A stretch of 64,000 bases of DNA from contig NZ_LMVK01000005.1 in the NCBI RefSeq assembly GCF_001541315.1, positions 62,001 to 126,000 of the forward strand, read 5' to 3'. Positions 30,831 to 55,671 of the stretch are shown in pieces. Under the pieces are notes generated by a model. It saw only the letters and a list, made by a program, of their open reading frames with translations. It was not told the DNA's origin and searched no databases. Within the stretch, counting starts at the first letter, position 1. Every line of letters begins with the position of its first letter. The stretch is from Agrobacterium tumefaciens str. B6. Its GTDB lineage: Bacteria; Pseudomonadota; Alphaproteobacteria; Rhizobiales; Rhizobiaceae. The translations under genes were made by a program, and so were the position numbers.

Positions 30831-30878
30831 TGGTGCCCCCGACAAGGTTCGAACTCGTGACCCCCTGATTACAAATCA
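30831..30878. repeat. attL, displaced 3' half of tRNA-Thr
   Basis: 48 bp identical to 55596-55643. It starts at the CCA end and reaches the anticodon stem (…GATTACAAATCA). The left copy is followed by AC rather than the GG needed to continue the tRNA, so this copy is not a functional tRNA. Confidence 0.93.
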
Positions 30879-31036: not shown

Positions 31037-31080
31037 CGGTGGCCCCAGGGTGGCCCCAATCAGAGTTGGTGGCCCTAAAA
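31037..31080 (+). repeat. TGGCCC repeats at the left island end
   Basis: GGTGGCCCCAGGGTGGCCCC followed by TTGGTGGCCCTAAAA: three TGGCCC units in direct orientation, 16 bp before the integrase start. The same composite motif is found at the right end (55516-55540). Likely arm-type binding sites of the integrase, or an operator for it. Confidence 0.6.
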
Positions 31081-31095
31081 TATCAGGAGGTCTAG

Positions 31096-32670
31096 GTGGC
31101 CGAATACATAGATAAGAAAACCATTGATAGGGCGCGGTCTGCCGCGCAGTCTCGCACCGCAGCCGTGTTCCGAGACAGCGACGTCGCCGGCTTATGCATC
31201 CAAGTGAAAAACGGAAGTGCCCATTGGTGGGTCATGACCAAGAACAACAAGATTTCCTTCGCGCCGCTGGACGGGTTCAGAGTCGATCAGATGCCCCTCG
31301 TTCGGGAAATAGCCGCGAAGATAAAGGCGAGCTGGAAAGCTGGTCGGAAAAACAATGACATTAAAATCATGGTTTCCGCTCTTTTATCGCAGCCTACCAC
31401 TACACCATCCGTCGAAGCTGCGGAGAATGTTGCGGCCGTGAAAATCGACGGCGCGTGGACGTGGGAGGTTCTTCGGGACGAATATCTCGCGTGGGCGAAG
31501 ATATACAAGAGCGATGCAATGTATGCGACTTATCGCTCAGCGCTTGGAGCTGCGAAAAACAGTAAACTGACCTCCGATTTCAAACACATCGCAGGCAAGC
31601 CGATCGCGAATCTCACACAACTCGATATCCTGACCGTTCGGCAGAACATTCTCGAGCGCGGCGGGATGGTCAACGGCATTCCCAAGGACAATGTGCGAGC
31701 GGCTGAGCAAACGGAAAACGGGCTCAAGGCAGCCTTCAAGTTCGCAATGGACCCGCGACGCGTTACCGGGTTGAAAATGAATCCAACCATCGGACTGCCG
31801 GCCGTCGACCAACCGGATTTGAAGAAGCGCGATATTGTGAACGCAGACGATATTTTCGACCGTCCGTATATGTCTCTTAAACAGCTACACGATTTCCTCT
31901 TCTGGTTGGAAGACAAAGAGTTTTCTCACGAAGCAAAACGAGCTGTCACGCTTCAAGCATTGACGGGGCAACGAATAGAAACCGTCACGACGACGTTTCA
32001 TAATCAGATGGCAAGGACGTACGGCTCCGTGTTGTTCGATTACGTTTGGTATTTGGGACCAGACAAGAATAAGCTCTATCGTCCGCTCCCCCTGCCGTCT
32101 TGGGCGGCATGGGCAGGACATACCGCTTTGATGCGATACCGGGAGCGATCCCCCGATAAAGACGCTAATAACTTCCTCTTCCCGCAATTGAAGAAGCGCT
32201 ACGCCCACATACCTGGTAACGGACATATATCGAACAAGCTTATCAATGACATTTTTCAGGCTGCGCGAAAGCCTGGGGGACCCTTAGAAGGAACCGCCTT
32301 CGCCAGTCACGACTTGCGGCGAGCGTTCGTCAGCCACGTCGGAAAGAAGGGCCGCAAACTCGGATTCCCGTATGACGATATCGTAAGCGAGGTTGCAAAG
32401 GTCACGCATAAGGGCGAAGGCAAGATCAGCGTCATCCAGAAATTCTATGATCTGGACACCGATTCATCCCTGAAACTGAAGATGCTTCAGCTCTGGCAAG
32501 ACATGATCCTCGGAGCGTACGGAGAAGCCAAGCGCCCGGATGATCGCTGGTTCGAACTGGATGAACCCGAGGTGCCGTTAACTCGTGAAAAATGGCTCCA
32601 AATGCAGGAACAAACGGAAGACGATTTCCAGGAGTTCGGCGTCTTTGGGGAGTACACCGAACCCGATTAG
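31096..32670 (+). CDS. int: Tyrosine site-specific integrase
   Basis: A 524-aa integrase starting with GTG after a perfect AGGAGG (31084-31089). The N-terminal ~130 residues form an arm-binding-like domain (FRDSDVAGLCIQVKNGSAHW), followed by a SAM-like core-binding domain and a catalytic domain with the tetrad: Arg ~293 in LTGQRIETV, HDLRR (His 405, Arg 408) and Tyr ~451 in IQKFYD. It would cut and rejoin the 48-bp att sites in tRNA-Thr. The gene is next to attL, as usual for tRNA-targeting islands. Confidence 0.93.
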   Translation: MAEYIDKKTIDRARSAAQSRTAAVFRDSDVAGLCIQVKNGSAHWWVMTKNNKISFAPLDGFRVDQMPLVREIAAKIKASWKAGRKNNDIKIMVSALLSQPTTTPSVEAAENVAAVKIDGAWTWEVLRDEYLAWAKIYKSDAMYATYRSALGAAKNSKLTSDFKHIAGKPIANLTQLDILTVRQNILERGGMVNGIPKDNVRAAEQTENGLKAAFKFAMDPRRVTGLKMNPTIGLPAVDQPDLKKRDIVNADDIFDRPYMSLKQLHDFLFWLEDKEFSHEAKRAVTLQALTGQRIETVTTTFHNQMARTYGSVLFDYVWYLGPDKNKLYRPLPLPSWAAWAGHTALMRYRERSPDKDANNFLFPQLKKRYAHIPGNGHISNKLINDIFQAARKPGGPLEGTAFASHDLRRAFVSHVGKKGRKLGFPYDDIVSEVAKVTHKGEGKISVIQKFYDLDTDSSLKLKMLQLWQDMILGAYGEAKRPDDRWFELDEPEVPLTREKWLQMQEQTEDDFQEFGVFGEYTEPD

Positions 32671-33046: not shown

Positions 33047-35041
33047 TTAGGATGCTAGGAAGCCTGTGGTTCGCAAATCGTCTTCGATTTTCGCGAATGC
33101 TAGCCGCGCCTGTTCAAACTGCTCTACAGTGATAGAGCCCGAATGCGCCTCTTCAGTTCGAACTTTTCGAATTGCTTCCATATAGAATTCAAAATCGTTC
33201 TTACCGATGGTGAACATTTTTTCGAACAGGGGCCATTTGGCTAAAATTATTTTTGATAGGTCGCTCAAATTGAGGTCGATGGAGTTAGGTTGTAGGGCAG
33301 CCGAGAAGCCGCGCTCTGTAAGTCTCTTCAAGCTTACGCCAGTCACAATTGCAGTTGCTTCTTTCTGGGCTTTGGCTCCAAAGTTGGCCATGAAAATCGC
33401 GAGAATTACCCGTCGCATGGCTGGCTCGATCAGCGATCTCCGGGCCGCGACTTCGACTTGTCGTTCTTGGTTGGTTTTTACTGGTCTCGTGAATTTAGAC
33501 TTCTTTTGGAGATGCTCGCGTACTGACTCAATTCGGAAGTAATAACCATCAGCACCTTTTGCAATCAGGCCGTAGCCGATCAAGTGGCTTGTCAGTGTTA
33601 TATCACTCGCGAATGAGTTAAATAGCTCAAGGTCGTTATTCGCTAGAGCGGTTAGCATAATGTATTCGTCTGGAAAGTCTCTAACGATAACATCGAGTAT
33701 CATATCCGTATAATTCGCATAATTTACGTCGAACTCTGACTTTGATTTTACATACAAAGATTTATCTACGTTGTGAGGCCGATTTGTTGGTGTATTTTTA
33801 TTTATTATCGAGCATACGTGCCTAACTAGGTACGGATGTCCCCCAAGATCATCGTGAAGCCGGGAATAAACAAGGTCATCAAATTTCAGACCCATATAGA
33901 GACCGAGTTTTCTGACCATTTCTGATGTTTGTTGGAAATCAAAGCTAGGAATATATTCTACTGGAACGCTGTTAAATATTGGATTGTCATGACCTTGTAT
34001 GAATGGAGTCTCGATAGACTGCGGATTTGTCCCAATCAATACGAATGAGAAAACCCCTGTGTGGCGTTGGAACGCAGACCTTATTGCTTGCCAAAAAAGT
34101 ATGAAATCGGTTCCATTGGCCCAATGCGAAGACGACCCTGTTTTTGGTGAGATTCGTTCTATTTCATCGAATGCGATGAGAATTGGGCTTCTCTTTAGTG
34201 CCGAGTATATCGATTTTACGTCATAGAAAAACTGATCCGCCGCATTTGTCGCGGTATACTTATCTACTTCTACGAGGTTTTTCTTTAATCCATACTTGGT
34301 TAGGGTTTGTTGCAATATGTACGGGAGAAGTTCATGCCATCTACGTTGATGCACTGATGGGCTTTGGCAGTCGACCGGAACGAATGACACCCCGTTTATT
34401 TTGCTCGCACGTTCCAACCCAAAAACGATTGAAGTTTTTCCGCTTCTCCGCAATCCGAATAGTGCAGAGTTTTCGTTCGAGCGGTGGCGCGACAATATGT
34501 TGTTTATTAGGTCTGATCGACCAAAAAAGTATGTGTCACGCTTGAGCGGACTCTCGAATGCGAAGAGGTCGCGAGAGAAAAAGTGGTGCCGAAATCTATT
34601 TAATATAAGTGACGGGTCTCTGTCATTGATAAGTTCGTCATAAGTAAATGGAACAATTACGGGAAGCTCTGGGTCGTTCTTTAGGACGTCGGTAATTCTC
34701 TCGACGATTTTACGGTCCCTGCTGATGAGAACGCGGCAGATGGGGTCAGTTCTGAGCTGATTAAACCGGCTCGCTGCTGCCTCGAACGCATCGATGGTGC
34801 GCACCTCGAATTCATCGTAATTGCTAAACACTGCAATTATTTCCCGCTCTAAATTGAACATTTTAGCGGATGGGTCGCAAGGTTTGCCTAGAAAGGCGCG
34901 ATATGTGCTCGTTTCAGACAGATGCAGCGGTTTTATGGGTGTGGTGACAAACCATTCAGTAGCGAAGCGCTTGATAATGTGCTGCTCTTCCCCGCTATAA
35001 GTGTCGAAATCAAAATTGGGATGTACGCCTGGTGTAGCCAT
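33047..35041 (-). CDS. AAA/STAND-like ATPase with C-terminal HEPN-like domain (candidate defence effector)
   Basis: A 664-aa protein. Residues 1-160 form an unrecognised N-terminal domain with a possible nucleotide or Rossmann-like element (CRVLISRDRKIVERITDVL). FSRDLFAFESPLKRDTYFFG leads into the P-loop FGLRRSGKTS (196-204) and Walker B ILIAFDEIE (287-295). A winged-helix-like region follows (about 460-520). The C-terminus (about 545-664) is helical and ends with KVRTEEAHSG: R628-x4-H633, the catalytic motif of HEPN ribonucleases (Swt1-like). This pairing of sensor ATPase and RNase is typical of abortive-infection proteins. The gene is visibly more AT-rich than its neighbours. The HEPN call rests on one motif and fold position. 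Confidence 0.7.
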   Translation of the reverse strand: MATPGVHPNFDFDTYSGEEQHIIKRFATEWFVTTPIKPLHLSETSTYRAFLGKPCDPSAKMFNLEREIIAVFSNYDEFEVRTIDAFEAAASRFNQLRTDPICRVLISRDRKIVERITDVLKNDPELPVIVPFTYDELINDRDPSLILNRFRHHFFSRDLFAFESPLKRDTYFFGRSDLINNILSRHRSNENSALFGLRRSGKTSIVFGLERASKINGVSFVPVDCQSPSVHQRRWHELLPYILQQTLTKYGLKKNLVEVDKYTATNAADQFFYDVKSIYSALKRSPILIAFDEIERISPKTGSSSHWANGTDFILFWQAIRSAFQRHTGVFSFVLIGTNPQSIETPFIQGHDNPIFNSVPVEYIPSFDFQQTSEMVRKLGLYMGLKFDDLVYSRLHDDLGGHPYLVRHVCSIINKNTPTNRPHNVDKSLYVKSKSEFDVNYANYTDMILDVIVRDFPDEYIMLTALANNDLELFNSFASDITLTSHLIGYGLIAKGADGYYFRIESVREHLQKKSKFTRPVKTNQERQVEVAARRSLIEPAMRRVILAIFMANFGAKAQKEATAIVTGVSLKRLTERGFSAALQPNSIDLNLSDLSKIILAKWPLFEKMFTIGKNDFEFYMEAIRKVRTEEAHSGSITVEQFEQARLAFAKIEDDLRTTGFLAS

Positions 35042-35329
35042 GTCGCTGTCTATCTAAGAAAGGGTTAGAAATAATGGTGGTGTCTTCTTCATCATAGTCG
35101 CGATAAAAAATCGATAACAATCAGGGGCTGTGGTCGCTAACAGGAATTTTTAATGCCGTTGACCTGCCCGATCGTTATCGAAGTCATACTAGATTTAAGC
35201 CGTCCGGCCCTCGGAGAGCCGATGTCATGAGCTTGCGAATGACTGTAGTCGGTCACTACAGTTGTACTTTTTGGCTTTCCGCCGGCGAAGTTCAGGGGCA
35301 CTCTCGGGTTATTCCTTTGAGTACCTAAG
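35042..35329. other. Divergent regulatory/transfer region
   Basis: 288 bp between the ATPase-HEPN gene and the mobilization operon. It holds the inverted repeat at 35242-35262 and must contain promoters for both directions. No gene is supported. Confidence 0.5.
35242..35262. promoter_or_regulatory. Perfect inverted repeat, candidate oriT or operator
   Basis: ACTGTAGT (35242-35249), five bases CGGTC, ACTACAGT (35255-35262). It lies 67 bp before the first gene of the relaxase operon. MobV plasmids such as pMV158 have an oriT hairpin of this size just upstream of mob, with the nick next to the stem. An operator for an island regulator is the alternative. Confidence 0.5.
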
Positions 35330-35689
35330 ATGCCGCGTCCTCCTCTTTACTTCACCCTCGTTCGCCTTGCAGACGGCGATCTGGCATCCCCCACTGTCAT
35401 CCGCAAGCCGACAGAGTTTTTCGCGCAGTTGCGATCTTATGGTTTTACCGAACATTCAGGGGCCGCGTCACCGAAACTAGCGGAAATGCAAACGGGCGCT
35501 TTTCTGGATACCGTCGCTGGTGTTTTCAGCGTATCTCGCGATCGACCGTTCACATACATTATCCCAGAGGGAATGCCCCGCGCCGAGTGGCTGGCGGCTA
35601 TGGAGGAGAAGGCTCACGATCCGCGTTTTTTTCTCCGGGAGCGTGACGGCGAGTTTTCTTATTGCACGATCATACCTCGTCTCAAGTGA
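35330..35689 (+). CDS. Small protein heading the mobilization operon
   Basis: A 119-aa protein of unknown family: LYFTLVRLADGDLASPTVIR, FFAQLRSYGFTEHSGA and YIIPEGMPRAEWLAAMEEK. No signal peptide or membrane segment. It ends 9 bp before the relaxase ATG, so it is probably a relaxosome accessory or regulator. Start chosen at the ATG whose frame covers the conserved-looking N-terminus; the ribosome site is weak. Confidence 0.65.
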   Translation: MPRPPLYFTLVRLADGDLASPTVIRKPTEFFAQLRSYGFTEHSGAASPKLAEMQTGAFLDTVAGVFSVSRDRPFTYIIPEGMPRAEWLAAMEEKAHDPRFFLRERDGEFSYCTIIPRLK

Positions 35690-35698
35690 CGTGCGATC

Positions 35699-36850
35699 AT
35701 GGCGTACCAGTTCGTCCACCTCGAATCGTGGTCGCGTAAACCCGACGCCAAGGGCAGGTCTACGGATTTTATCTTCGACGAAGCGTCCCGCAAACCCATC
35801 GCGTCCGTCCACGTCACCGATCCCAAACACCCGACGGTGATTTACGGCCTCGGCATCGATGAAGTCCGCCAGATGCACGATACGGCAGCGGCGGCGGCAA
35901 TGACGCCTGGTGCGCGGGGCAAGCTTCGGAAACTCGATTCCAAACAGAAGACCCTGCACACGGTCGTCGCCTCGCATCCTTATACCGTCGAGGAAGTCCG
36001 CGCCGATCCAACAAAGGCGGCGGAAGTACGGGACTGGGAGCGGAGGACGATTGCATGGTTGCGGAAGCAATATGGTCCCGCATTGAAATCGGTCCTCCGC
36101 CACACCGACGAAAAGCAATGGCATGTGCATGCCTACGTGCTGCCGACGAATGATCCACAGATGCGGGCGGGCATCTATCATCCCGGCGCTGTTGCCAAAA
36201 AGGCAGTGAAGGCGGGCGGCAGACGAGACGGCGAGGATGGCAAGGCGCTCAACAAGCGCGCGGACGTCGCTTACAAGGCCGCAATGCGGGACTGGCAGGA
36301 TTCATACCACGAAACCGTCGCCGTCCCATGTGGACTGACGCGTCTAGGCCCCGCACGCCGCCGTCTTACAAGGGAAGAGTGGAAAGCCGAGCAAGCCCAA
36401 GCACGGGCGCTCCAGAATGCCCTTGACTGGGCGGAAGCCGTGAAACGGCAGGGGCAAGACTACATCAATCGCACCAAGGCGGAGGCGACCGCCGCCAAGG
36501 CAGAATTGGCACAGATCAGGGCATCCACTGAGCGTCTGACCGGGATCGGCGGCGCTGTCCGTGCCGTCGTGGACGGTATTCAGGACTCCCGAATCCGCGA
36601 CCAAATCCGCAAGGAGTTTGCCCGCGATCTTGCAGCCGCAAAGGCTGCGGTGGAAAAAGCGCAAACGGAGACCGCGAAAGCAAAAACCTCCCAGCGTAAT
36701 GCCGAGAAGCAGGCTGCCGAGCAACGTCACGCTTTCCGTCAACAGCGGGAACGGCTTGTGGCCGCGCAGCAGGAAATCCGGGCGTTGTCGCAGGCGCTTG
36801 CCGCCGCGCTGGAGGAACCAGCACCGACACCGGGAGCGCCAGCACCATGA
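35699..36850 (+). CDS. MobV/Pre-like relaxase
   Basis: A 383-aa protein. LRHTDEKQWHVHAYVLP (His135, His142, His144) matches relaxase motif III (HxDE..PHxHxxxxP), which holds the metal in MobV/Pre enzymes. An acidic/basic N-terminal domain of ~215 residues precedes a long Ala/Gln/Lys-rich coiled coil (about 225-370) of the kind that ends many relaxases. It would nick oriT and pilot the strand into a conjugation channel. The nicking residue (His or Tyr in motif I) is not certain; SRKPDAKGR and KTLHTVVASHP are candidate regions. It overlaps the next gene by 4 bases. Confidence 0.75.
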   Translation: MAYQFVHLESWSRKPDAKGRSTDFIFDEASRKPIASVHVTDPKHPTVIYGLGIDEVRQMHDTAAAAAMTPGARGKLRKLDSKQKTLHTVVASHPYTVEEVRADPTKAAEVRDWERRTIAWLRKQYGPALKSVLRHTDEKQWHVHAYVLPTNDPQMRAGIYHPGAVAKKAVKAGGRRDGEDGKALNKRADVAYKAAMRDWQDSYHETVAVPCGLTRLGPARRRLTREEWKAEQAQARALQNALDWAEAVKRQGQDYINRTKAEATAAKAELAQIRASTERLTGIGGAVRAVVDGIQDSRIRDQIRKEFARDLAAAKAAVEKAQTETAKAKTSQRNAEKQAAEQRHAFRQQRERLVAAQQEIRALSQALAAALEEPAPTPGAPAP

Positions 36851-37527
36851 TGACAACAGGCGAAGAGATTTCCTGGACAAATGCCCGCGCGATCCTGCAC
36901 GACATTGGCATGGCACACCTAGATTGGGCGCATGGTGTTGCCGTCAACATCGTGCGGCAGTGCCAGAACACACGGCATCGCCCGACCTACCATCAACAGA
37001 CGTTTCTGGAGGCAGAATCTCCAGCCCTTCTGGCGTACCTCGAAAAGCTGGCGTCGTCGGGCGATAGCGTCGGATGGCGGACGCTTCGGGATCGTGTCCA
37101 GGTGCATGCTGATACTCTTCGAGATAGCGACATGCAGCCATGTCGCCGGCCATGGCTGGCGGCAATCTGGCACGCGCTCCCTGAACTGGCTGCGATAGGT
37201 CAGTCGATCCTCGACAAGCCGTCAAAACCAAAGAGTGTGGCCGATTTCGAAGTCATGCCTGGTTCGGCGGATACAGACTCTGCGTCGGGGAGCGGTGGAG
37301 ACAAGAAGGGTAGCGCGGGGAAAACCGGATCGGCTGGAACGGTGGCGAAACCCTCATCACGGCTGAAGCTGCCGATCGTCGCGGTTATCCTGACTGAAGC
37401 CGAAAAGAAGGCGCTCGGCCTCGACAAACCCGCCTCGGATGCCGACGCGAGAGATGAGGTCACGCCTGACGGTCCGGACGGGACGAACCACACATCGGGT
37501 CAAACAATGTCGGGAGGCCCGAAATGA
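36847..37527 (+). CDS. Unknown protein between relaxase and TraY-like gene
   Basis: A 226-aa soluble protein. The first ~150 residues look folded (ISWTNARAILHDIGMAHLDW, HQQTFLEAESPALLAYLEKL, LAAIWHALPELAAIGQSIL); the remainder is low-complexity Gly/Ser/Lys/Thr, probably disordered. ATGA overlaps on both sides couple it to the relaxase and the TraY-like gene, so a role in DNA transfer is likely. No family recognised. Confidence 0.7.
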   Translation: MMTTGEEISWTNARAILHDIGMAHLDWAHGVAVNIVRQCQNTRHRPTYHQQTFLEAESPALLAYLEKLASSGDSVGWRTLRDRVQVHADTLRDSDMQPCRRPWLAAIWHALPELAAIGQSILDKPSKPKSVADFEVMPGSADTDSASGSGGDKKGSAGKTGSAGTVAKPSSRLKLPIVAVILTEAEKKALGLDKPASDADARDEVTPDGPDGTNHTSGQTMSGGPK

Positions 37528-39491
37528 TTGATCTGTTGGCTGAACCGCCGGCCACCGATATCGCATGGCAGATTGTCAACGCGGTGCTGCCGAGTGAGGC
37601 GACGACGATGTACGGCCGCGTCCTCCAGGTCTTCAACTCGGTCCTGTTTTTCCTTGGCGGACTCTTTTTTGCCTACCAAGCTCTTCAGGGCATCGTTGCC
37701 TCGGCCCGCACCGGACAGGCGCTCGGCGAACGATGGCATACCATATGGACGCCATTGCGGGTAGTCGTGGGGCTCGGGCTACTCTTACCGACGCCGCAGA
37801 CTGGCTTTTCCAGTGTTCATTACCTCCTTCGGGATTTCGTTGCCCGTCCTGGCATCAATCTCGGCAATGCCTTGTCGAATACGGCCATAACTACCGTCGT
37901 GAAGGAGGGCGTCACCATTACGCCCGCCTCCTCGAACGGGTCTAGCATCGCGATGATGGTGCTGCGGCACGAAGTGTGTGCGGCGGTCTACAACCAGGCG
38001 GGCAATCTTTGGGGTTGGAATGCGCGACTGTCCGATCCCGAGGGAAATGTATCCGGTCTCGGCATCCTGGGGTACGAAAAGCGGATCACCTGGGCTTACG
38101 GTCCCACCTGTGGCCAGTTTTCCGTCAGTGCGCTTGATGATCGCGCCACATTCTCGAACGCAAGGCGAGAAGCTATAAAGATGTTCGTAAACGCGTTCCG
38201 CGCGGAGTCCGGCAGATATGCCCAGCTTGCCGCCGAAACCTCCGGGCTATCGTCCGCTGGTGCTGCGGCGAAGGCGGTGACATCCAATGTGCTATCGCCC
38301 GATCTCGTCCAGCGCATCCGCTCAATGGGAGCCGCCTATGATCGTGCGATGACGGCAGCCGCAAAGGAAGAGGCAAAGACCGTCGCGACCGCCTCCCGTG
38401 ACGCTCTTGTAAGGGATGCCCGTGAACAGGGGTTCCTGACCACGGGCATGTACTGGAGCACTCTGGCGCAGGTTTCTGAAATCACGACGGCGATGACGAA
38501 CGAACGGCCCGAGGATACACCGCCCCGTATTGATGGCGACTTCGGTGAAGCGATCCAGAAAGCGTTCGACGTGCTTCGCTTGCAGGTGTCGGGCGAAGCG
38601 GAACGGCAGGCGTTGAGCGCCAACGATTTCGCGGCAGCCGGCGACGAGACTGCTGACCCCGCCACGAAAATCATCGCGCCGATATCGCGCTCGATCATCG
38701 AATGGGCCGCGACGTCCGCTGATGATGGGCAGCCTCGTGATGAGATGGGCATTCTGGTTTCGTCGGGTCATGCGATGATGGCGGGTGTCTCCGCCGCCAT
38801 CGCCGCGGGTGGTGTGATCGCGGGCGTTGCAGGGAACAAGGTCGCTGAGTTCTTCGGAGCGGCGGCAATTGACTACTTCCTCGACTGGTCGAGGTTCGCC
38901 ATCATTCCTGTGTGGATCATGGGTGCGCTCAGGGCCTACGTGATCCCCATTATGCCGCATGTTTTCATGCTGGTGTCCGGCGTGGCCCTGCTCGTTTCCG
39001 TGATGGAGGCGATGGTTGCCCTGACGATCTGGTGCCTTCGCTGGCTAAAACTCGACGGCAACGATGATTTCGCGGGAGACAGCGTCAAGCTCGGTCTTCT
39101 GTTTCTCGTCAATATCTTCCTGCGGCCGGCATTGGCAATGCTCGCGGTGTTCGCTGCCTATGGGGTTTTTAATCCTGTCCTCGGAATGCTGGACCGTCTG
39201 TGGGCAACCGCTTTCCTCGCGCAATCGGGCGGGCACATTGTCGGCCTTCCCGGTTACATCGTGATGACCTTCGGGCAGACGTACATGATCTGGTACGTCG
39301 TTCTCAAGACCTACGGGCAGATATGGGCTCTTCCTGACCGAGTTCTGGCCTGGTCCGGTCAAAGCACGTCCTACGGCGAATCCGGGCTCGTTTCCGGTGC
39401 GTTCGGCGGAATGATCGCAGTTGCCGGACGCGGGATGATGCCCAAGACTATTCTTCCAGGGCTTTCGAAAAAGGGAGGAAAACCGAAATGA
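37524..39491 (+). CDS. DotA/TraY-type conjugation membrane protein
   Basis: A 655-aa inner-membrane protein. The N-terminal FFLGGLFFAYQALQGIVASA helix and WHTIWTPLRVVVGLGLLLP (72-89) are the signature of DotA/TraY family proteins of I-type (Dot/Icm, IncI) type IV secretion systems; a ~300-residue periplasmic part and at least five C-terminal membrane segments follow (SAAIAAGGVIAGV, WIMGALRAYVIPIMPHVFML, AMLAVFAAYGVF). TraY forms part of the pore and is the exclusion target in IncI plasmids. No other T4SS gene is present, so this one may modify a helper system. Translationally coupled on both sides. Confidence 0.85.
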   Translation: MIDLLAEPPATDIAWQIVNAVLPSEATTMYGRVLQVFNSVLFFLGGLFFAYQALQGIVASARTGQALGERWHTIWTPLRVVVGLGLLLPTPQTGFSSVHYLLRDFVARPGINLGNALSNTAITTVVKEGVTITPASSNGSSIAMMVLRHEVCAAVYNQAGNLWGWNARLSDPEGNVSGLGILGYEKRITWAYGPTCGQFSVSALDDRATFSNARREAIKMFVNAFRAESGRYAQLAAETSGLSSAGAAAKAVTSNVLSPDLVQRIRSMGAAYDRAMTAAAKEEAKTVATASRDALVRDAREQGFLTTGMYWSTLAQVSEITTAMTNERPEDTPPRIDGDFGEAIQKAFDVLRLQVSGEAERQALSANDFAAAGDETADPATKIIAPISRSIIEWAATSADDGQPRDEMGILVSSGHAMMAGVSAAIAAGGVIAGVAGNKVAEFFGAAAIDYFLDWSRFAIIPVWIMGALRAYVIPIMPHVFMLVSGVALLVSVMEAMVALTIWCLRWLKLDGNDDFAGDSVKLGLLFLVNIFLRPALAMLAVFAAYGVFNPVLGMLDRLWATAFLAQSGGHIVGLPGYIVMTFGQTYMIWYVVLKTYGQIWALPDRVLAWSGQSTSYGESGLVSGAFGGMIAVAGRGMMPKTILPGLSKKGGKPK

Positions 39492-39661
39492 AGAAACTCA
39501 TGGTCTGGACGGCTTCTGGATTTGGTTTGGCACTGGCCTGCGGCTTGTCGGGGCTGCCGCACCTGTCGGCCACGGTCATCACGCTGACCGCATTTTGCGC
39601 CGTGCCGGCGCTCCTTGTTGTGGCGCTTGATGTCCTGTCTCGCAGAGGAGTGGTGCGATGA
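39488..39661 (+). CDS. Small two-helix membrane protein
   Basis: 57 aa, starting MKKLMVWTASGFGLALACGL and ending ALDVLSRRGVVR, with two hydrophobic stretches. ATGA overlaps join it to the TraY-like gene upstream and to the exported protein gene downstream, which strongly supports translation. Possibly a pore accessory; no family recognised. Confidence 0.75.
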   Translation: MKKLMVWTASGFGLALACGLSGLPHLSATVITLTAFCAVPALLVVALDVLSRRGVVR

Positions 39662-39999
39662 GGGGCGTAATAATCGCCGTTATCCTTGCGGCAATCTCCA
39701 CGGGAAACGCCAGTGCTGAAACCTTCCGGTTTCCCGCCTCGGCACGGGCGGCTTACGGTGTCCCGCAAGTCGACATTGCCATGTCCGTCTACATGCACCC
39801 GGATTGCGCGGGCCGTTGGTCCGTAGATTACCCGGCAGGCTTCGCGTTTCGACGCGCTGGTCCAAATGGCGGGAACCTCTACGGCAACCCAGGCCGAGGA
39901 ACATATGACGTCGCCCTCAAAACAGAAGCCTGTCCGTCGCGGGGGTCTGATTACGTTGAGCCGGCCCGCATGACCTGGCACAAAGTTGTCGTCTACTGA
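39658..39999 (+). CDS. Exported protein of the mobilization operon
   Basis: A 113-aa protein with signal peptide (IIAVILAAISTGNASAET) and a mature domain with two conserved cysteines (HPDCAGRW and EACPSRG). No family recognised. The start overlaps the upstream stop (ATGA) and the next gene begins 9 bp after its stop behind a GAGGAGG ribosome site. Confidence 0.75.
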   Translation: MRGVIIAVILAAISTGNASAETFRFPASARAAYGVPQVDIAMSVYMHPDCAGRWSVDYPAGFAFRRAGPNGGNLYGNPGRGTYDVALKTEACPSRGSDYVEPARMTWHKVVVY

Positions 40000-40008
40000 G
40001 GAGGACCC

Positions 40009-40374
40009 ATGAAAACGATCCTGACCACCATTTTCCTCGCCTTGGCGACCTTATCGGCTAACGCCGGATCACTCTTGCAGCCGCCTGCCGACGCACTGCG
40101 CGTGGAGTTCACCAGTCCCGACACCTCGCCGACCGAACGCCTGAAGGCGGGTCAGCCGCTGACTGTGGGTGTCGTCGTCACGAGGTCGACGGGGGCTGTC
40201 CAGATCGTGCCGACGGCAACGCCGGACTGGATGGCCTTCAATCCGAAGACCCACCAATTTTCAGGGGTCCCCGTAGAAGGCGAGGATGAACTCGCCGTGC
40301 GGGTGACTGATGCCGGAACGGGGCAGACGGCGACGGGCATCCTCTCTTTCGCCATTAAAGGCGTCGCAGAGTAA
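40009..40374 (+). CDS. Exported Ig-like (putative He_PIG) domain protein
   Basis: A 121-aa protein with signal peptide (LALATLSANAGS) and one Ig-like domain: ATPDWMAFNPKTHQFSGVPV followed by EDELAVRVTDAGTGQTATG, the He_PIG/cadherin-like pattern of putative surface-binding domains. It could be a pore-surface or adhesion component. It is preceded by GAGGAGG and is the last gene of the coupled operon. Confidence 0.7.
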   Translation: MKTILTTIFLALATLSANAGSLLQPPADALRVEFTSPDTSPTERLKAGQPLTVGVVVTRSTGAVQIVPTATPDWMAFNPKTHQFSGVPVEGEDELAVRVTDAGTGQTATGILSFAIKGVAE

Positions 40375-40718: not shown

Positions 40719-42089
40719 TTAACGCGTCATGTGAAAATCCATGACGTCATCGGGTGCATCGCCCTGTTCCGACTGGTGCCAACTTGAAGTGACGCCCTGC
40801 ATCAACTCCTTGAGATCGATCGGGCGCGGACGGCGGCGCTCAACTCCACCCTGCACGGGTTCCGGGTTATTACCGTTGCGGGCGTTTTCAAAGGCGCGGT
40901 AATGGCGCAATGCCTGACGAAGCTCGGATTTGGTGCCGTTGGACAGGGCTTCGAAGCCTGACGCGCTTTCCAAGGCCGCGATCTCCAAGGCTTCATTCTC
41001 GAAGGTGCGGCCCAAAAGCATATAGCGGGCGCGCCCAAGGCTCGACTTGATGTTGCGTGCGGTTGCGCGTGAGCGCTGGTTGCCACGAACAAGCCACTGC
41101 ATGAAGCGTTCCTCGGTCTTCGGAGAAATCTTTCCCGTTTGACGGTCGAGGATGACCTTTCCGATGATTTCGGCAGCCGTTGGCGGGACGGCGTTGGCGA
41201 TCATCACCATGATGCGGCGCTTGTTTTTCGAACACCATTTCCAGCCCTCGGGAAACCCCTGGATACGGGACAGGAATTTCTGGTGGCCAACAGCTGCGTC
41301 TTCCAGCGGAGCACTGTCGTTCGGGTGTGCCTCGTACTTTGCCTTCAGCGCTGCCGACGGCGGTTCGCCTGACGTTCTGGTAATAGTCGCGTAGGGCTCA
41401 TCAACGCTACGGACGGCACGGCCGGCGCGAAGCGGCCGCGTGTAGATGTGTCCTTTCACAACGATATCGAGATTGTATTCCGGTCGCCACTGGTTCTCCG
41501 CAGTCGGCATTTCGCCCATCGCTTTGGTGAATTCCCGCCGCACGGATTTCGGTACGTCGGTGGCGGCATCCGCGATTGCGCCTTCAATGAACCCATCACG
41601 TTCGCCGAGACGTCCCACGACGATCAGACGACGTCGCGCCTCTGGCGTATTGTAGTAGGAAAAATCGACCCGGCACTCTGAGATGCCGTAGCCAGCTTTC
41701 TTGAGCATGGCTCGTGCCTCGGCCCACGATTGGGAGCGTGCGGCTTGGACGACGTTTTCCATGATGAACCACTCAGGGCGCACCGCCGCGATGGTGATCG
41801 CATACGCCAGGGTCAGTCGGGCGTTCTTGCCCTCGGCACGCTTGCCGGCCACGGAGAAGTCCTGACATGGAGGGCCACCCGCGATGAGGTCGGGTTTCAG
41901 GTCCACGATATCCGGGATAATGCTGAGAAGATCGGACAGGTCACGCTGATGAACGTGGTCGCCAATGTTCGTGCGGTAGGTCTCGACCGCGTCCGGCATG
42001 CTGTCATAAGCAGCGACGACATCAAAGCCAGCGCGCTTGAGACCAAGCGACATACCGCCCGCACCACAGAAAAGTTCAACAACCTTCAT
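40719..42089 (-). CDS. DNA (cytosine-5) methyltransferase, orphan
   Basis: A 456-aa m5C methyltransferase. Motif I VVELFCGAGGMSLGL at the start, motif IV GGPPCQDFSVAG with the catalytic Cys, motif VI ENVVQAARS, motif VIII EARRRLIVVG, motif IX RIQGFPEGW and motif X IANAVPP. A ~130-aa C-terminal extension follows motif X (MLLGRTFENEALEIAALESA, ending in a charged tail), longer than standard enzymes. The start MKVVEL at 42089 follows GGAAAGGAAG; an earlier ATG lacks it. No restriction gene is adjacent, so it may protect the island or regulate. Confidence 0.88.
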   Translation of the reverse strand: MKVVELFCGAGGMSLGLKRAGFDVVAAYDSMPDAVETYRTNIGDHVHQRDLSDLLSIIPDIVDLKPDLIAGGPPCQDFSVAGKRAEGKNARLTLAYAITIAAVRPEWFIMENVVQAARSQSWAEARAMLKKAGYGISECRVDFSYYNTPEARRRLIVVGRLGERDGFIEGAIADAATDVPKSVRREFTKAMGEMPTAENQWRPEYNLDIVVKGHIYTRPLRAGRAVRSVDEPYATITRTSGEPPSAALKAKYEAHPNDSAPLEDAAVGHQKFLSRIQGFPEGWKWCSKNKRRIMVMIANAVPPTAAEIIGKVILDRQTGKISPKTEERFMQWLVRGNQRSRATARNIKSSLGRARYMLLGRTFENEALEIAALESASGFEALSNGTKSELRQALRHYRAFENARNGNNPEPVQGGVERRRPRPIDLKELMQGVTSSWHQSEQGDAPDDVMDFHMTR

Positions 42090-42259
42090 TCGATCTTCCT
42101 TTCCCGACGCCCGGTTCACCCGCTGTGTAGCGGTGGCGCGTTAATGGAAGTCCGAAAAAACCGTTAAAGGTTTAGCGAAGGTGTAAATTTTTGGATGTCG
42201 AAATTAAACACCCATCACCCAATTCTACATGATGCTGATACGGGCAAGGTGCCCGCCAT

Positions 42260-43627: not shown

Positions 43628-43933
43628 TTACGACACCAGAACAGGGCCGCTGACGATGCGACGGATAGCTTCCTCGACAGCTGCTACAGCTTCCTCCCGG
43701 GTATGGACAATACCATTTGCAAGGGAGCGGAGGCGTTTCGGAAATCCATTCTCATCCCGTGACTGAATGTCTGGAATGTCGACGGAATAAACCCATCGGG
43801 CATCGGGGCACTTCTGGAGCTCTTCCATCCAGGCACACAGCGGGTACGGATATGAAGGGTGATCGACCTCGGCGGCGTCATAAACCGCGTACTCGTGTTC
43901 GGCATTGTACCAGTCTATCGCGATTGCCGTCAT
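43628..43933 (-). CDS. Hypothetical protein
   Basis: 101 aa: AIAIDWYNAEHEYAVYDAAE, CAWMEELQKCPDARWVYSVD and a C-terminal helix HTREEAVAAVEEAIRRIVSG. No family recognised. Its ATG overlaps the stop of the upstream microprotein gene and follows AGGAGG. Confidence 0.65.
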   Translation of the reverse strand: MTAIAIDWYNAEHEYAVYDAAEVDHPSYPYPLCAWMEELQKCPDARWVYSVDIPDIQSRDENGFPKRLRSLANGIVHTREEAVAAVEEAIRRIVSGPVLVS

Positions 43934-44094
43934 ACGTGCCTCCTGATGAGCTTACCAACGATCAGCAACGGTAACACGATCCAAAAAGCGAGGCTGCCCG
44001 CCTCCATCACTTCCGGTGCTTTGATGGCGGCTGTGTGCAGGATTGCAAAGGCTGCCATGGCGATCGGCAGCCAGAGGACTCGTAAAACAAGCAT
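43930..44094 (-). CDS. Membrane microprotein
   Basis: 54 aa with two hydrophobic segments (LWLPIAMAAFAILHTAAI and LAFWIVLPLLIVGKLI) and a basic end RRHV. It ends in an overlap with the next gene (ATGA), which supports it. No family recognised. Confidence 0.65.
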   Translation of the reverse strand: MLVLRVLWLPIAMAAFAILHTAAIKAPEVMEAGSLAFWIVLPLLIVGKLIRRHV

Positions 44095-44125
44095 GTCGTT
44101 TTTCCTTCATGTGGGAATGTGGGTT

Positions 44126-44365
44126 TCAAGTGCGCGAAAAGCGTCGAAACGCCTGGATACCATTGCGCTGGATTTCCTGTTTCATGTCGTCGGCAGCTCC
44201 GGGCAGACGGGACTTCCCGATAAGGCGGCGTACGGACGTCGCTTTCTCGACCCTGTAGATGGATGCCACGTAGCAAAGGAGGCTGCCGCACGGTGCCCGC
44301 TCGTTAACCTCCTCGATCATAAGATTGAAGGTCAGACCCGGAATGAGTGTGGTCTTTACGGCCAT
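44126..44365 (-). CDS. Hypothetical protein heading the small-gene operon
   Basis: 79 aa: TTLIPGLTFNLMIEEVNERA, CYVASIYRVEKATSVRRLIG and a basic C-terminus. GAGG precedes the ATG. No family recognised. It is the first of eight small genes on this strand. Confidence 0.55.
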   Translation of the reverse strand: MAVKTTLIPGLTFNLMIEEVNERAPCGSLLCYVASIYRVEKATSVRRLIGKSRLPGAADDMKQEIQRNGIQAFRRFSRT

Positions 44366-45224
44366 TTTAAACCTCGAAAGCGGCTGTTTTCATTGGCCTA
44401 TTTATATCATTTCGTGGGAATCGAGCCCAGGGAATAACGCGGCATGGTTGAGTTGTGCCGGAGGCGTAGTTAACGGGATCGGTCGAATTTTAAGGGTTCC
44501 TTCTCGAAAGCCATGCTCCCTGTTCGATCCTGCCGGAGGCCGGTCGAACCCGCGCACAGCGCGGTCTTGTGATGCTCCCCGTCCCGATGCCTCCAATCCG
44601 ACCGGCACGCGCAACGGCGGTCACCCGAAGGGCCGAAGCAACGCGGCGGACGGCACCGCCGTTGACATAGTGAGCATGTCGGTAGGCTTGCTGGTGAGGG
44701 TGAGGAAATGGATTCAGGGGTATCTTGGCCCATCCGAAGGTACAAACGTGTTGTACGAGGCTCTATACGCGCCCGTAGAACGCGTTTGACTACAAAATGG
44801 TCCCGTGGACCATTGGGGCGCGGGAAGCGCGTCTACAACGAAGAAGAGCGCACCAGAGCTCCAAGCATAGCGGTCCCCGGTGACGTAGATGGCGCGGGAA
44901 TTCGTACATGCCAAGAACGATCAAAAGGGCCACCGCGAGAGACTCATCATAGATGTGCCAGTCGGCTTCATGCCCTTTTTATCTTCCCACATGAGAAGGT
45001 TTAACCGCCATCAGTTTGACGCAGGCAGGGCTACCACCTTTAAGAGAAACTTTTTTCGGGCTGGAGAGCGCTAAGTGCGGTCATCTGTGCCGAAACGGAA
45101 ATTCAACATGAAGAATCCGTCATTGCTACTACAACAAATTATCCTTTTTTGCTTGCTCGGCAGGCCATACGTCTGCACGTAGTATGGGTTGGAAGAGAAT
45201 ACTGACCAGGTTTTCAACTTTCAC
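44366..45224. other. 859-bp gene-poor region
   Basis: Between the small-gene operon and the KTSC gene. A 61-aa plus-strand frame (44889-45074) with a GGTGA ribosome site is possible but unlike anything I know. The left part is GC-rich and structured around CCGGAGGCCGG. The inverted repeat at 44796-44814 lies in the middle. It may hold the small-gene promoter. Confidence 0.4.
44796..44814. promoter_or_regulatory. Perfect inverted repeat, candidate operator
   Basis: AATGGTCC (44796-44803), CGT, GGACCATT (44807-44814). No T-run follows, so an operator or recombination half-site pair is more likely than a terminator. Confidence 0.4.
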
Positions 45225-45434
45225 TCACACTCGTGAATACGGATAAGCATTCTTAATATAGGTGTTCAAAAATTGTCCCTTCGAAGGGGCGCTCATTAGT
45301 TGCTCGTAGAGAGCAATGGAAACATTGTAGTACTGATACACAGTCCCGCTAGTGAACTCCACTTCGAGGGTTTCTGTCGCTTCATCATAACCAATGGATA
45401 CCAAATTTGTTGATCCAACATGTTCACGCATCAT
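45225..45434 (-). CDS. KTSC-domain protein coupled to SIR2-HerA
   Basis: About 69 aa. LVSIGYDEATETLEVEFTSG, VYQYYNVSIALYEQLMSAPS and GQFLNTYIKNAYPYSRV match the KTSC domain (a short all-beta/helix module of unknown role, also found in some tRNA synthetases). The ATG overlaps the end of the HerA gene, with GTAAGGACA before it, so the three genes form one unit. A longer frame upstream is antisense-like within HerA. Confidence 0.8.
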   Translation of the reverse strand: MMREHVGSTNLVSIGYDEATETLEVEFTSGTVYQYYNVSIALYEQLMSAPSKGQFLNTYIKNAYPYSRV

Positions 45435-47271
45435 TGTCCTTACCCTCGTCGTGGTCTTCAATGGAGGTTCGTTCGATGTTGAGGTCATTGACGACAGCCG
45501 TGGTGCGCTGGGCTCTCCATGAAGCAACTACGCGATCATAGCCCTCGGCCGTACGTTTAGATTTCCACGCCTGAGTGACTCTCGGATCGGAACTCTGTGG
45601 CATTTGATCAACAGACGGCAGAAATATCCGCGTCCTGACGGGCAAGCGGGCCGCTTCCCCGGTTATAATTGCTTCACCTGTACGCAAAACAGGCAGCAGG
45701 TCTGTCAGGCCCGAAAGGTTGTCAGGCAATGCGCCTCGGACGCGACCGCGATCCGACGGGTTCGACAGCCTGAGGGCTATTAGAGTGCCGCATTGGGATA
45801 GGATTGTCTCATCTATCTCCGCCGGCCGCTGCGACACCACCATAGCGCCGACACCGTATTTGCGCCCTTCCTTTGCAATGCGCTTGACGACGTCAGCCGC
45901 CGCGTCCCCGCTGTCTGACGAAACGTAACGATGAGCCTCCTCCATTACGACGAGCAATGGCCGTAAAACGCCGCCTTCCGTCTTTTCTCGGCTCCAGAAA
46001 AGCGCTTCATAGACGATCCTTAGAATGGACCCTATTAGCCGCACCAGAACTATGCTTGGGACGCCTGAGAGATCGAGAATTGTAATTGGCTTTTCGTGGC
46101 CCAGCCAGTCCTCAAGCAAGACGTCCAAGTCTTGCGCGGAGAAACCTCCAAGGTCCGGTTCCCAAGGCCCCGGGTGGAGAAGGAAGTCAAAGCGGCGGTC
46201 CAATAGCCTAGAGCGTAGCAAATTCAATTGTCGCCGAATACCTCTAGCCGCGGTATTCGTAAAAGGGCCAGTTGAGCCTAAACCATGGGGCTGATATTTA
46301 GGAGGGGCTAAGGTCGCCGCATCCCCCTCATCCTCGACGGCGGGCTGGTCTCTGTTCACACCGACGAATGTCTTCGTCTCAAAGTCCACGAGATCATACC
46401 AAAGCTTTTTCAACGAAAAGGGTACAGGACTGTCAACGGTCAAAGATTGGGCCGGCAGGCCTGGAAGTGCCTCAGCCTCAATACGTTGAGTTTTGAGCTC
46501 CTGTATCTTGTCGGTGAAAGCAATGAGCTGGTTGTCATTGAGGCTTCCTGCTAGAAATTCTAAGAGTTCTCCTGTTTCCAATGCCCAATATGGGACATAC
46601 AGCGGACGCTCACCCGATTGTGGCGTGGCGCTGAACACCTTCGCGACATCCCCCAGAGCAGCCGCATATTCACCGTGAATATCCAACAAGAGAATGCGTG
46701 CCCCCGGCGATCCCTCGGAGCCATCGCGACCAACAATCGACCGCAGAATACTCGCCACCGTCGTGGATTTTCCAGAGCCTGTCGAACCGAGAATGGCGGA
46801 ATGGCGGGTCACTAGGGCGTCTAGCGACAGTCGCACAACGATATTCTCGGCGCTCGAAAGCGTTCCAACCGCAACCTGGTTCTCCTCTTCTCCGCCGTAA
46901 ATTCGGCGGAGATCGCCCTCCGTCACTATATGGACGGTATCATTCACGTTTGGATGCTGGCTAAGGCCTCGTTCAAAGTGCGATCCGATAGCCTCTCCTG
47001 CGAGTTCGATCCGCATCCAGCGTCCTGAGTCGACATCGTCGGAGGCGAGACTGACGGGCGCTGCCGAGGCACCGACCTCCGAGACAATCCCGAAAAGGTC
47101 CTGATAGCCTTGTGGGATTCGGACGAAGCTGCCCACTTGTCCAACCCGGTAAGCGTGCCCCGCGATTATAGCAGTACCCGAGGCCAAAGACTCGGAGAGC
47201 CTTACGGTAATAGAGGCACCGGAGACGGCCGTCACTTTGCCAAGATAAGTGGGGTCGGTTAAAGTTGCCAC
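45424..47271 (-). CDS. herA: HerA-family ATPase of a SIR2-HerA defence pair
   Basis: A 615-aa DUF87/HerA hexameric ATPase. Residues 1-145 form the HAS beta barrel; GSTGSGKSTT (162-171) is Walker A; LLVVMEEAHRYVSSDSGDAA holds Walker B; AEIDETILSQCGTLIALRL is the HerA arginine-finger region. GTG start after AGGTG, 11 bp after the SIR2 stop. In known SIR2-HerA systems the HerA ring binds the SIR2 NADase and the pair stops phage by NAD+ loss and possibly DNA cutting. Confidence 0.9.
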   Translation of the reverse strand: MATLTDPTYLGKVTAVSGASITVRLSESLASGTAIIAGHAYRVGQVGSFVRIPQGYQDLFGIVSEVGASAAPVSLASDDVDSGRWMRIELAGEAIGSHFERGLSQHPNVNDTVHIVTEGDLRRIYGGEEENQVAVGTLSSAENIVVRLSLDALVTRHSAILGSTGSGKSTTVASILRSIVGRDGSEGSPGARILLLDIHGEYAAALGDVAKVFSATPQSGERPLYVPYWALETGELLEFLAGSLNDNQLIAFTDKIQELKTQRIEAEALPGLPAQSLTVDSPVPFSLKKLWYDLVDFETKTFVGVNRDQPAVEDEGDAATLAPPKYQPHGLGSTGPFTNTAARGIRRQLNLLRSRLLDRRFDFLLHPGPWEPDLGGFSAQDLDVLLEDWLGHEKPITILDLSGVPSIVLVRLIGSILRIVYEALFWSREKTEGGVLRPLLVVMEEAHRYVSSDSGDAAADVVKRIAKEGRKYGVGAMVVSQRPAEIDETILSQCGTLIALRLSNPSDRGRVRGALPDNLSGLTDLLPVLRTGEAIITGEAARLPVRTRIFLPSVDQMPQSSDPRVTQAWKSKRTAEGYDRVVASWRAQRTTAVVNDLNIERTSIEDHDEGKDNDA

Positions 47272-47282
47272 GTTATTTGCAC

Positions 47283-48467
47283 CTATGTCACTGGGGCGGC
47301 CGGCGTCGCGACATCCGCCGAATATGAGATAGCCAGAAATCTGCAGAATGTAGCGAAATCACCGAGCAAGAATACAGGATCGCCCTGCCCCCAGCGCTGA
47401 CCCCAGAAGCTGCTTCTGATCTCACTCCAATTCTTTGGAGGATCGCCTAGCCTCCACTTTCCTGCAACCCCGTTTATAACGGCTCCATCCGAAGCGTATA
47501 CGGACACGTTAGGCCGGTCATAAGCCAGTTTACACGCGGGTTGTTCCGAATTCAGGTCAAGGAATTGGAAGGCGAATACCGACGTGTTCGCGTTAACCGC
47601 GAGTGCCTCATCGATGACAGCGCATATATGCGCGTCCCTGAAGGAAAAACCTGTCGTGAGAAGGAGCGTATCGGGCGTCATGAGAAACCGCTTCAGCCGC
47701 TCGAACAGAGCTGCGTATGGTTGCTTCTGGGTCAAATCGTATTTCAAATGATCAGGATAGATAAGTTCGGTACTGTCATAGCTACCTGTTCGGACTACGC
47801 GCCCATTCTCGACCATCCAGCCGAGAGAACCATGCATTTTCCAGAGCCGAACCCATCTCGCAGGAAGATCGTCTCCTGCAACGGTCACAGGATCGAAAAA
47901 GGGCGCATGACCTCCGCTGAAACCATCAAAATATGGCACCTTGGCTGCCTCCAACGCGGTTTCAAAAAGAAGGTCGTAGTTCGTCGTGAACAGTTCCACG
48001 GAATGAGGTCTCTGCGCCCCAGCAATCCAGGCAACTAACTCATGAAACGCACTCCGGGCGTTCGGTAGCTTCGCACCGACGATTTTGCCGATCCCTTCGC
48101 AGATTTTCTCTCCAAGCGCTTTGTATCCGTCCCCGTCGAGTCCGTTGGCCTTGACGTCTCCCAAAGCCGTCTGCATCAACCTGATCTTGGAGAGGATATT
48201 CTCGATATTCCCGTTTTGTGGGAGTGAAGCACGAATTGCGTCAACGGCAGCTTTCTCGTCTCCAACGAAGTCCTTGAGCACTGCGTCAGTCAAAGCATCC
48301 ACCCCGGGAATGAGTGGAGTTCCGTTCGGGTCCAAGTTACCGTTCTGATCGATCCGAACCGAGAGTGGCGCTCCCGCGCCAACAAGCAAGCCGATACGTT
48401 TACGACCTTGGGATAGCACTTGACGGAGGTCCGCCATGAACCGATCCGGATTATGAACGGACTCCAT
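47283..48467 (-). CDS. SIR2-like NAD-binding protein of a SIR2-HerA defence pair
   Basis: A 394-aa SIR2-fold protein. GLLVGAGAPLS (near 27-37) is the NAD-binding glycine motif, ELFTTNYDLLFE holds the conserved Asn-Asp, and LWKMHGSLGW the catalytic His. C-terminal helical region follows. The ATG at 48467 has AGGA upstream; a GTG at 48488 is possible. Partner HerA follows at once. Family members degrade NAD+ on phage infection. Confidence 0.88.
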   Translation of the reverse strand: MESVHNPDRFMADLRQVLSQGRKRIGLLVGAGAPLSVRIDQNGNLDPNGTPLIPGVDALTDAVLKDFVGDEKAAVDAIRASLPQNGNIENILSKIRLMQTALGDVKANGLDGDGYKALGEKICEGIGKIVGAKLPNARSAFHELVAWIAGAQRPHSVELFTTNYDLLFETALEAAKVPYFDGFSGGHAPFFDPVTVAGDDLPARWVRLWKMHGSLGWMVENGRVVRTGSYDSTELIYPDHLKYDLTQKQPYAALFERLKRFLMTPDTLLLTTGFSFRDAHICAVIDEALAVNANTSVFAFQFLDLNSEQPACKLAYDRPNVSVYASDGAVINGVAGKWRLGDPPKNWSEIRSSFWGQRWGQGDPVFLLGDFATFCRFLAISYSADVATPAAPVT

Positions 48468-48488
48468 CGCCAATTTTTCCTCAACCAC

Positions 48489-49190: not shown

Positions 49191-49194
49191 GACC

Positions 49195-49920: not shown

Positions 49921-49924
49921 AGGA

Positions 49925-50599: not shown

Positions 50600-50611
50600 C
50601 TGGTATGGAAA

Positions 50612-50725: not shown

Positions 50726-50778
50726 TTTTTGTCAAGGTGGCGGTGCTACGGGGCGGCCGGCACAGGGTTTCGGACAGC

Positions 50779-51330: not shown

Positions 51331-51493
51331 ATGATCGACGTTGAGTGCCGTAGATTGCTCTACGAGTATGAGGATGTTGGCAGCCTGTGTGCCGACAACA
51401 TCTGGTCTGAAGGTATTCATCTTCCCCCGCCTCTATAAGAATAATCCCTTACTATATAAGAAAAACGGGACACTTCCTGTTATCCAATTGATA

Positions 51494-55595: not shown

Positions 55596-55671
<76 letters not shown>

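Follow-up and report, generated by a model that had tools for sequence, protein, structure and literature searches.

The window, i.e. the whole 64,000-bp stretch of Agrobacterium tumefaciens str. B6 analysed here (contig NZ_LMVK01000005.1, positions 62,001 to 126,000), contains a 24.8-kb integrative mobilizable element (IME), and the region 35330-40374 is the mobilization operon of that element, in which the gene of a MobV-like relaxase is accompanied by one gene for a DotA/TraY family protein, a VirB6-class channel subunit of I-type conjugation machines (mating-pair formation type I, MPF_I; type IVB). The I-type core genes DotH/TraN and DotI/TraM were absent from the genome of the window and from 24 of the 34 genomes of the family sample in which DotA was found, and such lone DotA genes (lone meaning a genome without DotH and without DotI, two I-type markers) were located beside relaxases of three families. 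We assign a probability of roughly one half to the reading that the island would swap its own TraY into the channel of an I-type helper plasmid, most likely escaping exclusion thereby.

The element is delimited by two att copies 24,765 bp apart, and the space between them is occupied by an integrase gene, the operon, and cargo including several defence-type genes. Flanking att repeats at a target gene, an integrase, and an own relaxase without an own mating apparatus (DotH and DotI being absent) identify it as an IME. The features of the element ends and of the operon are, in order of position:

30831..30878, no strand: left att copy, in which the last 48 bp of tRNA-Thr are repeated exactly
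31096..32670, plus strand: tyrosine-recombinase-type integrase of 524 amino acids (aa), p524 (phrog_1 integrase, E 3e-14)
35242..35262, plus strand: inverted repeat ACTGTAGT-CGGTC-ACTACAGT, probable hairpin of the origin of transfer (oriT) or regulator site, ending 67 bp before the first open reading frame (ORF) of the operon
35330..35689, plus strand: orf119, 119 aa, first ORF of the operon, no family assignment; L070 alone of the compared loci has a clear relative (78%)
35699..36850, plus strand: MobV-like relaxase, 383 aa (NF041497, E 9e-11, below cut-off)
36847..37527, plus strand: p226, which in the MOBV elements separates the relaxase gene from dotA, no family assignment
37524..39491, plus strand: DotA/TraY (VirB6-class) channel protein, 655 aa (TIGR04346 and 9ngy matches)
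39488..39661, plus strand: p57, a small membrane protein
39658..39999, plus strand: p113, apparently exported (signal-like N-terminus by inspection)
40009..40374, plus strand: p121, apparently exported, with a weak Ig-like match (He_PIG, E 1e-4, below cut-off)
55596..55643, no strand: right att copy, formed by the 3' end of tRNA-Thr(TGT) (gene 55596-55671)

All seven plus-strand ORFs of the original prediction were recovered at their positions. The 4-bp stop/start overlaps that had been claimed for most junctions were present at four of the six, i.e. relaxase/p226, p226/DotA, DotA/p57 and p57/p113, and the other two are 9-bp gaps. No Pfam or NCBIfam match better than E 0.01 was obtained for orf119, p226, p57 or p113. 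Integrase p524 likewise matched nothing in Pfam or NCBIfam, and a 96% identical copy of it was present in locus L069. Just within both att ends, GGTGGCCC repeats were observed (31038-31075 and 55517-55535), which may be integrase or excisionase sites. In a tRNA search of 11 relative loci, tRNA-His or tRNA-Gln genes were found in four and none in seven.

Assignment of the 655-aa protein to the DotA/TraY family, as originally proposed, was borne out by profile search: TIGR04346 was matched over residues 18-612 of 655 with E 2e-64 and a score of 218 bits, the cut-off being 100, and phmmer returned the solved chain 9ngy, named DotA, with E 9e-19. DotA/TraY is described as a VirB6-class protein that assembles into a pentamer on the machine axis (PMC12857230, PMC12624023). 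The closest named relative was a DotA of Rhizobium nepotum (98%).

The further claim, that the island holds no other gene of a type IV secretion system (T4SS), agreed with the scan of 25 element ORFs (not every small ORF) in at least one library, in which none was I-type. A complete T4SS travelling with the element was sought by the two marker genes and not found: DotH and DotI had no match in the whole genome of the window (5.65 Mb in 52 contigs, one DotA), DotB, DotG, IcmB and others being outside this search. Fourteen named control genomes gave no match for DotA, DotH or DotI; positive controls of the DotH and DotI profiles were the matching genomes and plasmids themselves, 8 of 24 in one test set and 10 in the family sample. 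The genome contains three VirB4 loci, all on other contigs, which represent one VirB system and two Trb systems, and the host probably has a Ti-like plasmid. With these VirB4 assignments and the absence of DotH and DotI, a hidden I-type T4SS in this genome was rejected, again with DotB, DotG, IcmB and others not searched. The HerA ATPase of the element (45424-47271) was also considered as a coupling protein and discarded, as its best match was a defence HerA (PADLOC, E 1e-162) and it adjoins a SIR2 gene.

The relaxase was predicted to be MobV-like on the basis of its motif III. The motif stood, in that the HxDE...HxH pattern, which we take to define motif III of MOBV, was found as RHTDEKQWHVHAYVLP and is common to all 8 aligned relaxases; the family match to NF041497 was found too, at only 42 bits against a cut-off of 100 (E 9e-11), so the protein is divergent, and Pfam Mob_Pre gave E 0.067 only. 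With the relaxase below the NF041497 cut-off, MOBV serves here as a working label.

Upstream of the operon, the inverted repeat ends 436 bp 5' of the relaxase gene, and no other match at three or fewer mismatches was found in the window (0.03 expected). It is located at the same place in six elements, the centre CGGTC being constant when the arms vary yet remain complementary. Across seven loci, 5 of the 8 pairs showed two-sided changes and 91% of cells paired; the covariation score and the paired percentage were reached by none of 500 shuffles, with slid controls far lower, and two measures were unexceptional, namely pairs changed on both sides (reached by 52 of 500 shuffles) and further pair types (74 of 500). 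The seventh locus, L052 of genome G341, has a 52% identical relaxase with the repeat upstream and no DotA match in the genome, and the repeat thus goes with the relaxase, not with DotA. Judged by position and covariation, the repeat is probably oriT; it may alternatively be a regulator site, e.g. for an activator of the helper.

The relaxase-p226-DotA set recurred in five further elements, with identities of 52-93% for the relaxase and 55-98% for DotA, and is therefore not a chance assembly. Four of these loci came from a contig scan with the DotA protein, and the fifth (G323, locus L050) from the order sample. Gene order was the same in all five, i.e. relaxase, p226, DotA, and then a relative of p57, with relatives of p113 in two and of p121 in three. 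In L072, DotA is interrupted (4869-6859, matches in two frames); intact relatives exist.

In the family sample of 394 genomes, DotA exceeded the cut-off in 34; DotI was found in 10 genomes of the sample, each of them one of the 34, and among the 34 DotH was found in the same 10, leaving 24 lone genomes. A relaxase gene was located within 2.4 kb of DotA in 21 of the 24 (8 MOBV and 13 MOBQ). In the eight MOBV genomes the relaxase is upstream on the same strand with p226 between, at a gap of 658-691 bp in the seven with a whole DotA, the DotA of the eighth (G447, locus L072) being broken. In the 13 MOBQ genomes, with 14 loci, the relaxase is divergent from DotA in 14 of 14, at 332-2361 bp. The MOBQ label was given by profile for L060 (PF03389, E 2e-44) and for L057 (NF041496, 182 bits, below the cut-off of 200), and by similarity to these for the rest. 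The remaining three lone genomes are G751, where DotA is preceded by a p226-like gene and followed at about 5 kb by a PF03432 relaxase, G433, where DotA adjoins an M23 peptidase gene in the company of RepC-like and integrase genes, and G410, in which no relaxase was found in the 20 kb examined.

The order sample of 397 genomes gave 14 DotA matches, of which 11 passed the cut-off; the three weak ones below it (G051, G224, G317) were kept outside the DotH/DotI count. DotH and DotI were both present in three of the 11 (G218, G324, G027) and neither in eight. Outside the family, G235, G292 and G333 (two loci) have a MOBQ relaxase at 279-548 bp from DotA, and G005 and G319 have a PF03432 (MOBP) relaxase at 518-904 bp. 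Among nine plasmid records, searched as the plasmid record alone, DotA was without DotH and DotI in four (Microvirga W01, pVF2, pGES5 and pPae-13) and with both in five. Relaxases so often this near DotA would hardly be expected by chance, and with recurrence of DotA in both samples a single chance case was rejected. The T4SS-linked DotA genes form a weak control for this proximity: 11 of their 16 rows span only about 1.5 kb on each side, and the other five together with L147-L149 matched none of seven relaxase queries, which may miss I-type relaxases.

DotA is an add-on, as only two of the 16 order genomes with a relative of the relaxase (G000 and G323) have DotA beside it. It is an add-on also to MOBQ and MOBP relaxases, which the original prediction had missed.

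In a second kind of lone DotA, an M23 peptidase gene is located downstream, as in G433 (L127:8828-13271, the RepC/integrase context) and in L006, L010 and L011, which are on MOBP plasmids of beta- and gammaproteobacteria. A clade of 912-937-aa DotA proteins without DotH, DotI or a recognised nearby relaxase was found in L124 (G410) and in L061 and L062 (G172).

Ratios of nonsynonymous to synonymous substitution (dN/dS) were 0.08-0.24 for DotA, in the nine of ten pairs that gave a value (the pair window-L070 yielded no dS), and 0.12-0.29 for the relaxase, as rough estimates with dS often above 1; the DotA value was the lower one in seven of the nine pairs and the higher one in two. By these ratios DotA is under purifying selection. 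Identities of relaxase and DotA disagree between elements, e.g. 54%/82% for the window and L071, 82%/66% for L070 and L071, and 70%/55% for the window and L050, which argues that DotA has been exchanged separately from the relaxase.

In a 23-row DotA tree with 17 lone and 6 other rows, the lone ones did not form one clade (approximately unbiased test, p 5e-9). In a 55-row tree, obtained by a quick search and including flagged long branches, there was strong support for a group of 31 made up of the MOBQ- and MOBV-associated DotA proteins, the MOBP-associated G751, the Microvirga plasmid and Rhizobium leguminosarum pRlX5, and the ten T4SS-linked DotA proteins of the family were placed elsewhere, with the G319/G005 pair as sister. 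The element DotA proteins thus placed look like an old separate stock and not like recent copies from the sampled helpers. The broken DotA of L072 was left out of the identity table, the dN/dS estimates and the trees, the DotA proteins of G324 and G027 are in neither tree, and alignments A2 and A3 do not include G323 (L050).

The small gene directly after DotA was variable. Among ten MOBV rows with a whole DotA, a p57-like ORF overlapped the dotA stop in seven; in L133 such an ORF begins 85 bp on, and in L069 and L134 a different membrane protein of 91-95 aa follows. The p57 relatives of L069 and L050 have a tail similar to the DotA C-terminus (41% over 34 aa, E 3e-7, and 38% over 48 aa, E 6e-7, in a five-sequence database), which is lacking from the p57 of the window. 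In the MOBQ loci L137 and L145, DotA is followed by an apparently exported protein of 249-361 aa. The position of p57 is that of excA in IncI and IncL/M plasmids, where excA directly follows traY. ExcA is, on the other hand, much larger than p57, and p57 gave no ExcA-type match in the Pfam and NCBIfam scans, no direct comparison with ExcA having been made.

The cargo adjoins the operon with a DNA methylase gene:

40719..42119, minus strand: C5 cytosine DNA methylase, convergent with the operon (PF00145, E 4e-43)

Of the 23 family loci L124-L146, seven had a relative of this methylase (41-59% identity) in the sequence around DotA, as had all four MOBQ loci from other families, and the enzyme possibly protects entering DNA from restriction. 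Between the integrase and the operon, 33047-35041 encodes a 664-aa STAND/AAA-like protein with a weak terminal HEPN-Swt1 match, no PADLOC match and a 77% identical relative in L070, a possible unrecognised defence gene. On the far side of the methylase from the operon, three consecutive small ORFs at 43859-45004 (p192, p154 and p98) gave no useful family match in the library scans; relatives of p154 and p98 were present in five of the five related elements, and of p192 in four. A HerA-SIR2 pair is located at 45424-48488 (PADLOC, E 1e-162 and 2e-172). The block 48828-52843, comprising p227 and p246 in overlapping frames, a LuxR-like p224, p251 and p449, was 80-96% identical in L069, and p449 also had a 68% relative in L072. 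At the tRNA end of the island, 52941-55383 encodes an NaeI-type restriction endonuclease, a C5 methylase and Vsr, with relatives in L072.

Exchange of a VirB6-class subunit by an island has precedents. In the report on SGI1, the island TraG replaces that of the helper, raises island transfer and escapes IncC exclusion, as proven by mating (PMC5389848), and in the report on TraY and ExcA the recipient ExcA acts on the donor TraY (PMC4416936); both precedents had been invoked in the original prediction and were confirmed in these sources. For GISul2 and an IncP island, the same swap has been proposed with TrbL (PMC5704250). The present element resembles SGI1 as an IME with an own VirB6-class channel subunit and without the rest of the T4SS (here by two markers), and differs from it in that the helper of SGI1 is of the MPF_F type (IncC), not MPF_I, and in that SGI1 is described as carrying TraN and TraH as well and as lacking a canonical relaxase (PMC5704250). 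With the IncP island it shares an own relaxase, a VirB6-class protein (TrbL), a small exclusion-like gene, and relatives in Alphaproteobacteria, and the variable small gene after DotA recalls TrbK of that island as well as ExcA (PMC5704250). However, the TrbJ-TrbK-TrbL set of the IncP island and GISul2 is of the MPF_T type and includes a VirB5 homologue, and the MobP relaxase of the IncP island is described as related to that of its helper; the present elements have TraY/DotA (MPF_I), a MobV-like or MOBQ relaxase, and no recognised VirB5. Plasmids pVF2, pGES5 and pPae-13 are similar in having a MOBP relaxase and DotA with no DotH or DotI on the record; in contrast, their DotA proteins (952-962 aa) belong to a different clade and are encoded, together with an M23 peptidase, in a separate operon, and the distance from relaxase gene to DotA ranges from about 3 kb in pVF2, counted around the circle, up to 11 kb.

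In the proposed mechanism, an I-type conjugative plasmid would enter the cell, the element would excise from tRNA-Thr, and the MobV-like relaxase would nick at the hairpin upstream of the operon. The TraY/DotA of the element would then be built into the helper channel, either replacing the helper TraY or mixed with it, and the hybrid channel would favour the element, most likely by being unrecognised by the ExcA-type exclusion protein of the helper. The element could thereby return to cells in which the helper is already resident, as TraG allows SGI1 to do in the case of IncC. The helper type, the hybrid channel and the evasion of exclusion are what we infer from the gene content and these precedents.

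Several observations weigh against this scheme. The genome of the window holds only VirB and two Trb systems, and none of the ten family genomes with I-type markers has a second DotA, so that helper and element were never found in one genome (the lone 24 are without markers by definition); elements awaiting an incoming helper would fit this absence. Fit into a known helper channel is doubtful, since the element DotA is only about 22-28% identical to T4SS-linked DotA proteins (pRlX5 27-28%, AM1 24-27%, Bosea 24-25%, Acetobacter 22-25%), below the 37% reported between TraG of SGI1 and IncC (PMC5389848). The relaxase type occurs without an adjacent DotA, as in all but two of the 16 order genomes mentioned above. 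Finally, no p57-like ORF was found within 250 bp after DotA in any of the 18 MOBQ rows, and a p57-type gene is therefore at best a MOBV-specific extra; DotA with a small exclusion gene as a fixed pair is weakened by these rows.

The alternative that survives best, which we still regard as unlikely, is that DotA serves as a donor-side docking or gating subunit, letting a MOBV, MOBQ or MOBP relaxosome use an I-type channel with exclusion uninvolved. Its location beside three relaxase families, the MOBQ elements that carry it without a p57-like gene, and the placement of element DotA proteins in the tree, apart from the family's T4SS-linked proteins, are all in favour of such a role. To our knowledge, however, known adaptors for foreign relaxosomes are coupling proteins and not VirB6-class, and G341, with its related relaxase and hairpin and no DotA match in the genome, indicates that this relaxase type can exist without DotA.

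Considerably less probable is sabotage of the helper, where the element DotA would poison or slow the helper channel, a form of fertility inhibition that would reduce helper spread to the benefit of the element. A variant subunit could act dominantly, as VirB6-class subunits are described to form pentamers (PMC12857230), and the DotA-like C-terminal tail on the p57 relatives of L069 and L050 is what a dominant-negative fragment might have. Yet a full-length DotA under purifying selection is more than a poison needs, and its placement with a relaxase and a probable oriT suggests use in transfer of the element itself. We hold it to be slightly more improbable again that DotA functions outside I-type systems, working with the resident VirB or Trb systems (MPF_T), or alone as a membrane pore or recipient exclusion factor. 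VirB and Trb are indeed the resident systems of the genome of the window, and in the family sample I-type markers (10 of 394) are scarcer than lone DotA genes (24 of 394); nevertheless, DotA/TraY is a component of I-type machines, the two Trb systems already include TrbL, and a recipient-side role leaves the constant position beside relaxases unexplained. Descent from a decayed I-type conjugative element, with DotA as the last surviving T4SS gene, is very improbable: reduction of conjugative elements is described as a possible origin of mobilizable ones (PMC11389934), but the same single gene has been kept without DotH and DotI in 24 of 34 DotA genomes beside different relaxases in fixed arrangements, its dN/dS is 0.08-0.24, and apart from a single broken MOBV copy (L072 of G447) the lone loci of the family are long open frames.

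Subunit exchange in the VirB6 class, which we prefer to these alternatives, is known as a concept for MPF_F (proven) and MPF_T (proposed), and the TraY/DotA (MPF_I) version proposed here, with its broad distribution, would be new. Plasmid records already annotate a 'DotA/TraY family protein' on mobilizable plasmids; judged from listings, no report of a lone TraY/DotA in mobilizable elements was found in the open-access literature, and neither TraY nor DotA is mentioned in the 2017 IME review. A match to DotA/TraY does not imply a type IVB secretion system, which is to be borne in mind in genome annotation. More tentatively, DotA/TraY may be a standard mobilization gene without a T4SS, shared by MOBV, MOBQ and MOBP IMEs of Alphaproteobacteria, in which case remodelling of a helper channel by one subunit would be a general rule of hitchhiking and not confined to SGI1 and similar elements. 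With this system one could test directly whether the central channel protein governs exclusion, substrate choice or helper fitness. If the proposed swap is true, its I-type form would be commoner in the sampled family than the I-type markers themselves (24 against 10 of 394 genomes), and remodelling of the channel by one protein would be a common way for islands to parasitize conjugation.

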